Assembly (NCBI GenBank): GCA_000442125.1
Contig: KE546970.1
Coordinates: 1-64,000 of the forward strand
Direction: 5' to 3'
Source: Opeltia flavorubescens
Lineage: Eukaryota; Ascomycota; Lecanoromycetes; Teloschistales; Teloschistaceae
Length of the DNA stretch: 64,000 nt
Position 1 is the first letter of the stretch; each line of letters begins with the position of its first letter. Positions 52,387-58,693 of the stretch are shown piece by piece. A program made the position numbers and the translations under genes. The notes beneath the pieces were generated by a model, which was not told the origin of the DNA, did not search any database, and saw only the letters and a list, made by a program, of their open reading frames with translations.

Positions 52387-52593
52387 ATGGGTCTCAGCAG
52401 GTTCCTCCGTATACGCAAATATGTCCCATCATTCCACTGGACATGCTGCCACTGCAGCTGCGCGCATAGAGAAGAAGGCGAGGGAGGTTTTAAGGTCTAT
52501 TGCCGGCAGTGCAACCATAGATTCTGCGTGCAATGTGAGTATTCACGTGATTACGATGGCGGTGGATATTGGAAGCATCCTTTGCTTAAGTAA
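52387..52593 (+). CDS. Array protein 1: small six-cysteine (ZZ-like) zinc-binding protein
   Basis: 68 aa, single exon, short basic N terminus (MGLSRFLRIRKYVP). The core is WTCCHC, then 15 residues, CRQC, four residues (NHRF), CVQC, followed by the family tail DYDGGGYWKHPLLK. Three C-x2-C pairs with a His in the third spacer could bind one or two zinc ions. The spacing resembles the Cys core of ZZ-type fingers, but the usual H-x-H end is missing. There is no signal peptide, so the protein is probably intracellular; partner unknown. Its 3' flank (52594-52680) is related to that of gene 2, showing recent duplication. Family not recognised by name. Confidence 0.78.
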   Translation: MGLSRFLRIRKYVPSFHWTCCHCSCAHREEGEGGFKVYCRQCNHRFCVQCEYSRDYDGGGYWKHPLLK

Positions 52594-53032
52594 GGAGATT
52601 TGTAGTAGAGATTTGTAGTAGAGCTTTTGGTGTAGGGGCAAATGGCGCGTGCAGTCGCGGTCATCATAGTGAGAATTGAGGCTTTGAAGTGCGCCTCGAA
52701 GCCAGTGTGCAAGGCTCACATTCCCTTCCCTACCGTTCAAGGCTAAGAGAACGGAGTCATATCGCTAGATTAGAACAGATGAGCCATACACAACAATTGA
52801 TACGGTGACCTTCACGATAATCAGAAAAGCTATAAATTTCTTCAAATCCATCATCCTCAGTTCTCCCTCTCAAATCGTTACCTTCAATTAATCTTATTGT
52901 CTTTGCTACCCTTCACCCATAAGAAACTAGAAGGAAATCGACTCGGAAAAACCACGCAAACCCGCAGAGCCTTCAAGTGAGGATATCCCGTCTCCATACG
53001 CAGCATAATATTCAAGACCCTACCTCCCAGCC

Positions 53033-53230
53033 ATGCCTAAAAACGGCCCTTACCGCAGACACGGCCGCGTGCCAAAATTCAGCTGGACATGCTGCCACTG
53101 CGGTCATGAGAATCTTGAAGATGGCGGTGAAGGCTACTGGGTCTATTGTCAGGAGTGCGAGAAAATATTCTGCGGAAGATGTGTGTTCCAGGAAGGTGGC
53201 GAACACTTGAAGAATCCATTGAATAAGTGA
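53033..53230 (+). CDS. Array protein 2: small six-cysteine (ZZ-like) zinc-binding protein
   Basis: 65 aa, single exon, starting MPKNGPYRRHGRVPKF. The core is WTCCHCGHENLEDG, 15 residues between the first two pairs, CQEC-EKIF-CGRC, then VFQEGGEHLKNPLNK: the D-x-D-G part of the tail is changed but the N-P-L end is kept. It lies 439 bp after gene 1 on the same strand, with its own leader. Shared 3' words with gene 1 include GGAGATTTGT, GGTGTAGGGGC and CATCATAGTGAGA. Zinc binding is inferred from the three C-x2-C pairs. Confidence 0.78.
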   Translation: MPKNGPYRRHGRVPKFSWTCCHCGHENLEDGGEGYWVYCQECEKIFCGRCVFQEGGEHLKNPLNK

Positions 53231-53662
53231 GGAGATTTGTGGTAAAGCTGGTGGTGGTGTAGGGGCGCGGTCATGGTCATCATAGTGAGATTGGGGCTTT
53301 TCTGATTTGTGGTACATAGCATGCGTGTTTTGGGTCCCTATGATAGAAATTGAATCAGCTTGAGAGCTTTTCCTCTTCTCCTTATGCTTCTGGTATGATG
53401 ACTTATGATCCCAATGTCTATAACACGCTGCTAAATCCGATATCGATACAAGTCAAGTAGATCTGGATGCTTTATTATAGTAAAACTCCTATGAGTTACA
53501 CCACTCCTATTATTTCTTTTCCGATAGCATAGCCAGGTGTGCGCTACCGTCTCCGATCGACTCAGCATGCTGTCTTCGGGATATCTCCATACTTTGGGCT
53601 CTCGCCAAGGAGATCCACCTTTGCAAGTCCATCGCAGCATTGCATGGGTATTTTAAAGGGCC

Positions 53663-53803
53663 ATGTCATCTCGGCAAAGAGTATCACATCTAGAACCGCT
53701 ATCAGACTTAAGCTGGGTATGCCACAAATGCCAATCTTATCGCCATTTCTGGACCTTGGAAGCAAGAGGCGAGATCGCGAGGTATGAGAGTGAGATAAGG
53801 TAA
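53663..53803 (+). pseudogene. Relic array copy keeping only the first C-x2-C
   Basis: A 46-codon frame runs MSSRQRVSHLEPLSDL then SWVCHKC, which matches the family start W-x-C-x2-C (compare WMCHKC in protein 4 and WVCHEC in proteins 6 and 8). After that, RHFWTLEARGEIARYE has no further Cys pair. It sits in array order between genes 2 and 3 on the same strand. It is best read as a truncated and decayed member, though a short transcript cannot be excluded. Confidence 0.65.
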
Positions 53804-54071
53804 AGGAGCGCTCAATTCCATAGTAGCGGTCTGGGAATGTCAATGGGCTTGTCTTGCCCGTGGGTCAAAGATATCTAGGAGAGACAGCCACTGTATATGC
53901 GCTTCAGGATGTTGGATTCTTGCTTACAGCAGCTACTTCGGTGTGAAAAATAAGCGCTCTTCGAAGTCAGTATGCAAGACTCATATTTCCTTCCCTACCG
54001 TTCAAGAATTAGAAGTACGAGTCACAACCCTGAATGAAAGAACAATCGAGTGAGCCAAATACATTAAACAT

Positions 54072-54078
54072 TGACTCA
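54072..54078. promoter_or_regulatory. TGACTCA site upstream of array gene 3
   Basis: Perfect AP-1/Gcn4-type heptamer 151 bp before the start codon of array gene 3. Confidence 0.5.
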
Positions 54079-54222
54079 ACAATCTTAAGAACGTTCAACA
54101 ATTTCAAACTTTTCTAGATCAACTATCCTTATTCCCCGTTACAATACTCCTTCCAAATAAAATCACCTTCTGCAATACCCTCCTTCTAAAGGAATAACAG
54201 ACAATTCACACAAAAAAGCGGT

Positions 54223-54429
54223 ATGCCTTTCAGCAGCCTTTTCCATAAATCCGTCCCAGACTTCAACTGGGCATGTTGCCACTGCGGCCGGGAACATCAC
54301 GAAGACGGCAAGAAAGGATACCATGTCCGCTGCCAGAACTGCCACCGTAGATTTTGCGAGAAATGTTTCTATTCACGTGATAACGATGGTAGTGGCGGAT
54401 ATTGGAAGAATCCGTTATGTCTTATATAG
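54223..54429 (+). CDS. Array protein 3: small six-cysteine (ZZ-like) zinc-binding protein
   Basis: 68 aa, starting MPFSSLFHKSVPDFN. The core is WACCHCGREHHEDG, 15 residues between the first and second pairs, CQNC-HRRF-CEKC, and tail SRDNDGSGGYWKNPLCLI. It is closest to protein 1 (the CEYSRDYDGGGYWKHP and CFYSRDNDGSGGYWKNP tails), so these two probably duplicated most recently. Same strand, own promoter with TGACTCA. No signal peptide or domain beyond the Cys core. Confidence 0.78.
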   Translation: MPFSSLFHKSVPDFNWACCHCGREHHEDGKKGYHVRCQNCHRRFCEKCFYSRDNDGSGGYWKNPLCLI

Positions 54430-54904
54430 ATGAAGGTGCATGCAGCGGTGGTGTTGGAGGCCGCATTAGCAAGGTTGGGAGTTCACGATATCTCGATTTT
54501 TTGGTGTTTGGTTTGTGTGGTTTATAGCATGCATATTTGTTTCTTTCATTGGCGATATCGCACTGAAGGATGAGAGAGCCTGAAAACCGAGCTCTAGCTC
54601 GAATCGTATTCAAGCTGGCACCTTGATGATCTAGTGAATGGAATAACTCATTGGTCGGGTGTTAGGGTATTTACTTCTTGACTCTGGACGCGACATTTTC
54701 ATATGGAAAGTCAAGCAAGTTCATGTTCTGACTGTTACACAAGGTCATACGACCCACAATGGCTCCACCAAAGTACAAATATAAATTCCTGTGCAACCAT
54801 GTTCCTTCTCTTTCCCTACTTCCAAATCTCCCATTATACAGAGATCCTACCTAAGCAACATAGTCGCTCGAAGAATCACGCAGTCGTATTCTCTCTATAG
54901 CAAC

Positions 54905-57468: not shown

Positions 57469-57486
57469 TAGTTGACTCGAGGTCAC
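57469..57486. promoter_or_regulatory. 18-bp duplicated promoter element, copy 2
   Basis: Identical to 56724-56741 and placed upstream of array gene 8. See copy 1. Confidence 0.55.
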
Positions 57487-57599
57487 TACCACCAACTCCA
57501 CAGATTAAGATAGGTAATTGACTGCTACGTACCTATCAATCACTACTTCAGTGACTAATGAAGAGCTTCAAATTCACACGTCTTACATTGACACCATGA

Positions 57600-57629
57600 G
57601 AATGATTCACTCCCGCATGTGAATCATTC
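57600..57629. promoter_or_regulatory. Perfect 11-bp inverted repeat upstream of array gene 8
   Basis: GAATGATTCAC (57600-57610) and its reverse complement GTGAATCATTC (57619-57629) are separated by 8 bp. It lies about 215 bp before the start codon of gene 8. Such a dyad could bind a dimeric regulator or form a hairpin in the leader. No equivalent was seen before the other members. Confidence 0.45.
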
Positions 57630-57643
57630 ATGATCCTAAACCC

Positions 57644-57650
57644 TGAGTCA
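57644..57650. promoter_or_regulatory. TGAGTCA site upstream of array gene 8
   Basis: Perfect AP-1/Gcn4-type heptamer 198 bp before the start codon of array gene 8. Confidence 0.5.
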
Positions 57651-57841
57651 ACCTCGCCAAGGTCGTACAGACAGGTATAAATTGAACCTCCATCTATCCA
57701 ACTCCTGTGGTTACACAGATCATCCACCAAGTCGCACAAAACCCTCCCAGCCACACAAAACAGAAGGCTTAAAAGAAACACCAAGGTACATCTCACCCTA
57801 TTATTTCACTACATCTCTCCAGTGACAAGTGGTACGCGAGG

Positions 57842-58069
57842 ATGGTCGGGAAATCTGCTTTTCCCCCAGGGAAGGGCTATTACCGCCGCGATGCACCAAA
57901 GCCCGAATTTGTCTGGGTATGCCATGAATGTGGCACTGAACATCAGGAGGACGGACAATATGGGTATTACGTCTATTGTGCTCGATGCGAGCACCTGTTC
58001 TGCTGTGGATGTACATTTCTCTCCGATATAGATGGCGGGGTTGGGAATTGGGAGAATCCTTTGGCGTAG
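57842..58069 (+). CDS. Array protein 8: small six-cysteine (ZZ-like) zinc-binding protein
   Basis: 75 aa, the longest member, starting MVGKSAFPPGKGYYRR. The core is WVCHECGTEHQEDG, 15 residues, CARC-EHLF-CCGC, and tail TFLSDIDGGVGNWENPLA. A seventh Cys precedes the last pair (CCGC). It has the richest promoter: the 18-bp element, an 11-bp dyad and TGAGTCA. No signal peptide. Zinc binding inferred, role unknown. Confidence 0.78.
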   Translation: MVGKSAFPPGKGYYRRDAPKPEFVWVCHECGTEHQEDGQYGYYVYCARCEHLFCCGCTFLSDIDGGVGNWENPLA

Positions 58070-58519
58070 TGAGCTAGTATGGAGAACTTCCATCAGGAAA
58101 CTCAGAATTGTCTGAAATGGTTTGCGAAGTGTGGGTATGCATCTATTAAGGAGTTCTGATTAAATCTTAAAACCCATTTTTATATGCAAATAATCTTGAA
58201 TTGGAAAGTCAAAGGCCGTTGTCCAGCGCATGAGTTGTGACTGCGTTGATACTTCACTCCAATAAAATGACTCCTCATTACAAAACCCATCGTCATACCG
58301 ACCACCTCCAATGACGACCACGATCACAAGAGTCCCCCAGCGCATCTGACCAACCACAAAAGCCTATATAAACCCCCCTACTTTCTACCACACCTCCTCC
58401 TCCTCCTCCTTCCTCCCCATCATCACTTCTACCCTCTCACAACCTCAAGCTTTCCCCTCCCTATCTTGATTTCACCACCACCGGAACAAAAACACCCTTT
58501 CCTCCATTCGAAAAGAAAA

Positions 58520-58693
58520 ATGTCACAACCACAACCATCAACATCAAAATACATCCAATGCGAGAAATGTTTCCAAGACACTCCATTCGATAGAATTCAC
58601 GGTCGTCACGGTCACATAGTTGGGGGAAGATGGTGCTTGCATTGTGGGCATAAATTTTGTAATAATTGTGCGAGGGTTGAGATACCCGATTAA
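58520..58693 (+). CDS. Array protein 9: divergent six-cysteine member
   Basis: 57 aa from ATG 58520, starting MSQPQPSTSKYI. The Cys pairs are CEKC, then 21 residues rich in His, Arg and Gly, then CLHC-GHKF-CNNC. The last half fits the family exactly (x4 loop with His and Phe), whereas the first spacer is six residues longer and the W-x-C start and D-x-D-G tail are missing. It is either an old array member or a related type at the array's edge. A CT-rich leader (58386-58460) precedes it. Confidence 0.68.
   Translation: MSQPQPSTSKYIQCEKCFQDTPFDRIHGRHGHIVGGRWCLHCGHKFCNNCARVEIPD

Follow-up and report, generated by a model that had tools for sequence, protein, structure and literature searches.

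We have analysed the first 64 kb (64,000 nucleotides) of contig KE546970.1 of Opeltia flavorubescens (assembly GCA_000442125.1; the contig, C6 below, has 1,900,327 bases), called here the window, in which a tandem array of nine tiny six-cysteine genes had been predicted. The array is real, but it is larger and less singular than first described, being a branch of a diverged family of small zinc fingers that has a second array and a common control element. The family is apparently unnamed and is known here from one genome. We give roughly even odds (about 0.5) to the reading that it consists of small intracellular zinc-ribbon modules, hitherto undescribed as a family, with a presumed binding role, duplicated and diverging, and probably under general-control-type regulation by a basic leucine zipper (bZIP) factor.

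The nine-gene array and its divergence

All nine predicted open reading frames (ORFs) are present, each running from ATG to stop in one single frame of the + strand and encoding 57-75 amino acids (aa), as had been proposed. In the motifs, x stands for any residue.

52387..52593, + strand: array gene 1, 68 aa; W-x-C-x2-C-x15-C-x2-C-x4-C-x2-C; tail WKHPL
53033..53230, + strand: array gene 2, 65 aa; complete finger; tail LKNPL
53693..53730, + strand: relic of a tenth copy, truncated, first knuckle only (W-x-C-x2-C); inside ORF 53663-53803
54223..54429, + strand: array gene 3, 68 aa; complete finger; tail WKNPL
54905..55108, + strand: array gene 4, 67 aa; complete finger; tail WQNPL
55542..55757, + strand: array gene 5, 71 aa; C-x9-C replaces C-x4-C; tail degenerate
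56215..56433, + strand: array gene 6, 72 aa; complete finger; tail WKNPL; AlphaFold model 1
56971..57144, + strand: array gene 7, 57 aa; complete finger; stop before the tail, with tail-like residues in another frame
57842..58069, + strand: array gene 8, 75 aa; complete finger; tail WENPL; AlphaFold model 2
58520..58693, + strand: array gene 9, 57 aa; divergent, without W and with an x21 spacer; marginal member

In the alignment of the nine proteins the six cysteines are invariant. The x15 spacer is retained in eight genes (the exception being 58520, with x21), the C-x4-C spacing in eight (the exception being 55542, with x9), and a W two residues ahead of the first Cys in eight (58520 again being the exception). 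The full motif W-x-C-x2-C-x15-C-x2-C-x4-C-x2-C, which the original prediction had given as common to the set, with the spacer exact in eight, is present in its strict form in only 7/9 genes; a six-frame scan of the window returned 7 matches and 300 trinucleotide shuffles of 52301-58800 returned none. Similarly, the tail D-x-D-G-x-W-x-N-P-L, said to be kept by most members, holds for its end, with [N/H]-P-L in six of nine, but W-x-[N/H]-P-L is found in just five. Direct repeats at the DNA level within the array show that its genes arose by duplication. The siting had been called subtelomeric. TTAGGG repeats fill approximately the opening 99 bases of this stretch and the array lies 52-59 kb from this telomere, which is near the chromosome end but not at it. 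Beyond the repeats, the first 2 kb of the window (1-2000) have a GC content of 13%, versus 41-51% elsewhere in the window. Telomeres of TTAGGG and a genome of 34.4 Mb in 23 contigs would suit a filamentous ascomycete, and no 5.8S rRNA turned up in the assembly.

The cysteines are maintained while the rest of the protein diverges. In three alignments the identity of window proteins to the first row is 25-56%, and synonymous sites are saturated for many window pairs (57 of 141 within-array pairs when both arrays are counted). The ratio of nonsynonymous to synonymous substitution rates (dN/dS), which was obtained by pairwise counts and is not a site test, was 0.70 (R13/R14), 0.83 (R12/R14) and 0.63 (genes 1/3) in the three pairs of lowest divergence across both arrays, where R denotes members of the second array; the two pairs that follow gave 1.50 (R10/R13) and 1.03 (genes 2/7), and the other seven listed 0.47-0.89, so that 10 of these 12 pairs fell below 1. 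High values in the few unsaturated pairs agree with the fast evolution that had been proposed, and the alignment agrees with the proposed constant cysteines on variable surfaces; neutral change at the cysteine codons, which the original prediction had named as a sign against itself, was not seen among the nine. Because the ligands stay and most other positions change, the fold appears to be constrained and the surface to be loosely constrained or diversifying.

Further members of the family and a second array

The search covered the 34.4 Mb genome in its 23 contigs, and 31 family members were read, nine in the window and 22 others. A right-arm array on the same contig holds at least 15 of these on one strand (C6:1650110-1681817, ~219-250 kb from that contig end), a lower bound with 1664901-1668011 and 1671120-1673099 outside the sequence read. 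Contig C11 carries four members, contig C16 two full copies and contig C5 one. The C11 genes form a tandem of tiny finger genes on one strand (C11:371500-381000) without the TGACTC element described below. Incomplete copies also occur: on C16 the core at 646983 is only partial and the copy at 648526 is without the last knuckle, C22 has an incomplete copy resembling the latter, and C20 gave a partial match. A further pair of similar proteins (WYCGWCKKGP...), with two knuckles kept and the last one missing, was observed at C22:303000-312000 and in L040 from 5527.

The common core of the family is W-x-C-x2-C-x(9-21)-C-x2-C-x-H-x2-C-x2-C. Since spacers span 9-21 across the family, x15 is a trait of the window branch, and the supposition that it defines the family is not supported; the idea of nine orphan genes with an exact spacer of 15 was rejected on the spacers of 9-20 in the members outside the window (the pattern fits neither C16b nor R12), and an isolated nine-gene novelty does not survive the finding of an array of at least 15 genes with the same core. 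One right-arm member, R13, has the exact window motif. The segment C-x-H-x2-C-x2-C is present in 26/31 members, the exceptions being R04, C11c and window genes 2, 3 and 5, and lengths counted from the nearest ATG are 33-118 aa. The right-arm member R12 (C6:1679974-1680150) has no in-frame ATG and a W in place of the first Cys; it may be decayed or may use another start.

Homology between the window array and the further members of the genome was established by profile-profile comparison, in which the window nine and ten other members scored 45.9 (E 8.5e-10). The ten were picked by search, which favours W and H. Profiles with permuted columns scored lower (best of 100 with Cys fixed, 26.1; best of 60 with C, W and H fixed, 36.0), so the similarity exceeds the common cysteines. 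For 58520, the score against a profile of 26 other members was 29.6, with 29.3 as the best of 60 Cys-fixed shuffles; its membership is marginal by this measure, and its promoter has the common TGACTC element. Genome queries with three array members matched only array members, and the query with 58520 matched only itself. A tree of 30 members, from which R12 was omitted for lack of a complete core by pattern, had one starred inner branch of 27 and is of no use beyond clustering.

None of the 24 members scanned (of 31) reached a Pfam family cut-off, and neither Pfam nor NCBIfam has a model above cut-off for the window nine, in line with the earlier statement that no known family fits. Unannotated fungal proteins carry the pattern W-x-C-C-x-C ... 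C-x2-C-G-H-x2-C-x2-C, for which we know of no named family and found no Pfam model; a short query built from this pattern matched six places in the genome, one of them window gene 7. Protein searches, whose fungal coverage was uncontrolled so that an absence means little, gave no candidate for gene 6, 15 candidates for the nine-row alignment with none at E<=0.01, and for the C5 member an identical copy (P0001, source 'lgn') as the only match. No account of such a family was found in a literature search of openly licensed papers.

A promoter element common to both arrays

The element TGACTC/GAGTCA is common to most genes of both arrays. Within 400 nucleotides (nt) upstream it is present in 8/9 window promoters, gene 6 being the sole window gene without it, and in 10 of 14 on the right arm, a count that leaves out R05, whose upstream region is mostly outside the sequence read. 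Beyond the arrays, only 10/81 ORFs with a length of 120 aa or more have it (Fisher 3.7e-9; these ORFs are mechanical calls, partly overlapping), as do 12% of 2506 stretches of 450 nt. The window promoters were ranked first and the right-arm array was examined afterwards; the hexamer came top in each array taken separately (rank 1 among the 1536 and the 1706 hexamers present), with AGTCAT a close second on the right arm. Dinucleotide shuffles reached the window and right-arm counts in 0 and 1 of 1000. The strict 7-mer TGACTCA occurs in 5/9 window promoters, and the copies on C5, C11 and C16 have the TGACTC element in one of seven cases (within 600 nt). A TATA-like hexamer was found in 7/9 window promoters at -125 to -202 and in 11/14 right-arm promoters within 450 nt. 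Positions in the window are as follows.

52078..52111, unstranded: two GAGTCA, -309 and -281 of gene 1
52754..52759, - strand: GAGTCA, -279 of gene 2
54019..54077, unstranded: GAGTCA and TGACTC, -204 and -151 of gene 3
54679..54684, + strand: TGACTC, -226 of gene 4
55317..55322, + strand: TGACTC(A), -225 of gene 5
56716..56733, + strand: two TGACTC, -255 and -243 of gene 7
57473..57650, unstranded: TGACTC and GAGTCA, -369 and -197 of gene 8
58268..58273, + strand: TGACTC, -252 of gene 9

A stretch with TGACTCGAGGTCAC is conserved between the promoters of genes 7 and 8 (56703-56753 and 57448-57498), and the GGTCA that follows it may belong to a composite site.

TGACTC is the classical GCN4 core, and other bZIP factors bind similar sites; a study of 1986, cited in PMC7773203 and PMC10563202, reportedly, going by its title, named TGACTC as the hexamer bound by GCN4. 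A paper on Leptosphaeria maculans (PMC3199737) gives TGACTCA as a putative cross-pathway element (CPRE) upstream of cpcA. TGACTC(A) upstream, as looked for in a Gcn4/CpcA regulon, is what most genes of the arrays have. General-control-type bZIP regulation of the arrays is probable on this sequence evidence, and we infer that a Gcn4/CpcA protein may act on them.

Three other features of the window were noted. At 50744-51028 a tandem-repeated unit, seen in an ORF translation, surrounds an ambiguous base (N at 50882) and is possibly an assembly or polishing artefact. Adjoining the array, at 59031-59603 on the - strand, is a 190-aa ORF that has no Pfam match and whose N-terminus is hydrophobic and secretion-like. 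Pieces of an M28 peptidase with PA and TFR-dimerisation domains lie in two ORFs at 45051-47418 (+ strand), which may be a single carboxypeptidase gene interrupted by an intron or a frame change.

Proposed explanation and comparison with known zinc modules

AlphaFold models of genes 6 and 8 have finger blocks with predicted local distance difference test (pLDDT) values of 76-92 and 88-91. The top structural matches of both models are ribosomal zinc-ribbon chains, MCM, RPB12 and rubredoxin-type domains; among the ribosomal chains 9e71_BY is named eS27, and the others, whose entries carry titles only, we take to be eS27 as well. The model matches listed include no RanBP2, FYVE or ZZ structure, which is no evidence either way. 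A 26-row family profile matched chains of RBM10, RanBP2, RNF31, Nup153 and RPB12 in the PDB, and all E values of the PDB profile searches (alignments A1, A5 and A6) were above 0.002. Together the profiles and the two models weakly favour a RanBP2/NZF- or eS27-like zinc ribbon to which a further knuckle is added, and not a ZZ finger.

Under the proposed explanation, C1-C4 of the first two knuckles would hold one zinc in a RanBP2/NZF- or eS27-like ribbon, with the W packing on the first knuckle. Ordinary RanBP2 fingers have no third knuckle (C-x-H-x2-C-x2-C); here it may share this site, add a second one or serve in dimer contact. Spacer and tail, both variable, would form the surface that binds RNA, ubiquitin or a partner protein. 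The proteins are likely intracellular by their hydropathy averages, as 9/9 are without a hydrophobic N-terminal stretch (largest mean 0.75, versus 2.32 in a secreted-looking control ORF). A Gcn4/CpcA-type bZIP factor could turn both arrays on together, for example in amino-acid starvation, and duplication and truncation of genes in both arrays would have given rise to diversified small binding modules. A bolder version, in which an unnamed fungal family of tiny intracellular three-knuckle ribbons, with its two arrays switched together by a general-control bZIP factor, is a fast-diversifying recognition repertoire (e.g. for mobile elements, viruses or foreign nuclei) tied to starvation signalling, strikes us as unlikely to hold in full.

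Among other explanations, the one that we consider possible, if somewhat doubtful, is a cross-brace finger (FYVE/RING/IBR/PHD-like) minus its last ligand pair, in which one zinc would be bound by C1, C2, C5 and C6, with a partial second site at C3, C4 and the His, and the protein would be a small ubiquitin-pathway or lipid adaptor. This would account for the invariance of C5 and C6, and the central C-x2-C-x4-C-x2-C is FYVE spacing. Profile matches point the same way, with E values in Pfam of 0.00069 (IBR_1), 0.00031 (zf-RING_5), 0.0027 (PHD_2), 0.011 (FYVE) and 0.003 (IBR) and in the PDB of 0.0058 (RNF4), 0.0025 (KDM5B), 0.015 (Hrs) and 0.016 (endosome-associated protein); however, the Pfam matches are all below cut-off, the seventh and eighth ligands of RING, FYVE, IBR and PHD are absent, both models are zinc-ribbon-like, and the W-x(1,2)-C-x2-C-x3-[N/H] start of 19/31 members recalls RanBP2 fingers.

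Effectors or decoys directed against a host or competitor, and diversifying in arrays towards chromosome ends, which is close to the recognition or decoy family of the original prediction, would suit the siting of the arrays at 52-59 kb and ~219-250 kb from the two ends of C6 and the dN/dS values of 0.63-0.83 in the three least diverged pairs, followed by 1.50 and 1.03. We find this improbable in view of the missing hydrophobic N-terminus, the related copies on other contigs and the dN/dS below 1 in most of the least diverged pairs. It is still harder to accept tandem-amplified, stress-induced metal buffers of the metallothionein type. The proteins are indeed small, Cys-rich, intracellular-looking and in tandem, but the C-x2-C knuckles are fixed and the W is conserved, as in a structured finger, amplification for dosage gives near-identical copies and not copies at 25-56% identity, and Pfam returned no metallothionein family at E<=10 with any of the 24 members scanned. 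That the ORFs are non-functional or dying remnants of duplication is very improbable: the relic at 53693-53730, the loss of the tail in 56971, the missing in-frame ATG and first Cys of R12 and the several pairs with dN/dS not far under 1 would fit, but the six cysteines have stayed invariant in the window nine though synonymous sites are saturated in many pairs, and the promoter element is retained in both arrays.

Should the zinc-ribbon family with bZIP control be correct, a sizeable fungal gene class has been overlooked, with 31 members read and 0/24 at the Pfam cut-off, its proteins being shorter and more divergent than family models can capture. Two arrays of proteins with no assigned function may then belong to the amino-acid starvation response, and the common TGACTC element opens their function to test.

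The ZZ finger, to which the spacing had been likened, agrees in its C-x2-C ... C-x2-C-x4/5-C-x2-C core, but the family does not have the conserved terminal His pair. It was rejected, as no conserved His follows the last Cys (alignments A1 and A5, by eye) and no profile matched; the ZZ model of Pfam was absent at E<=10 for 24 members, though HMMER filters drop most weak matches and a remote relation is possible, and RanBP2/NZF, FYVE, IBR, RING and PHD appeared instead, all sub-threshold. FYVE, IBR and RING share the C-x2-C-x4-C-x2-C centre and the look of C-x-H-x-F-C-x2-C, whereas the family is without the last two of the eight ligands and without the basic HHC motif of FYVE, having six Cys and a His in 26/31 members, and its models are ribbon-like; best Pfam scores were 16.3 bits for FYVE (cut-off 27.8), 21.1 of 27.9 for zf-RING_5, 19.9 of 27 for IBR_1 and 18.1 of 24.3 for IBR. 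The eS27, MCM and RPB12 ribbons have C-x2-C-x(n)-C-x2-C on a ribbon and are the top structural matches of both models. RanBP2/NZF (PF00641) is similar in the W-x(1,2)-C-x2-C-x3-[N/H] start and in the ribbon-like models. The RanBP2 pattern W-x-C-x2-C-x3-N-x6-C-x2-C is present in 4/31 members (R03, R04, R06 and C11a) and in 0/9 of the window, and the best PF00641 match among the 24 scanned had E 0.16 and 11.7 bits against a gathering score of 27 (C11a, 8.3 bits). The family differs from RanBP2 in its spacer (9-21 versus 10), which is x15 (or x21) in the window branch, in the H that 5/8 of that branch have in place of the N, and in its extra third knuckle C-x-H-x2-C-x2-C, which on a RanBP2-like ribbon would be a tractable structural question in proteins of 40 residues.

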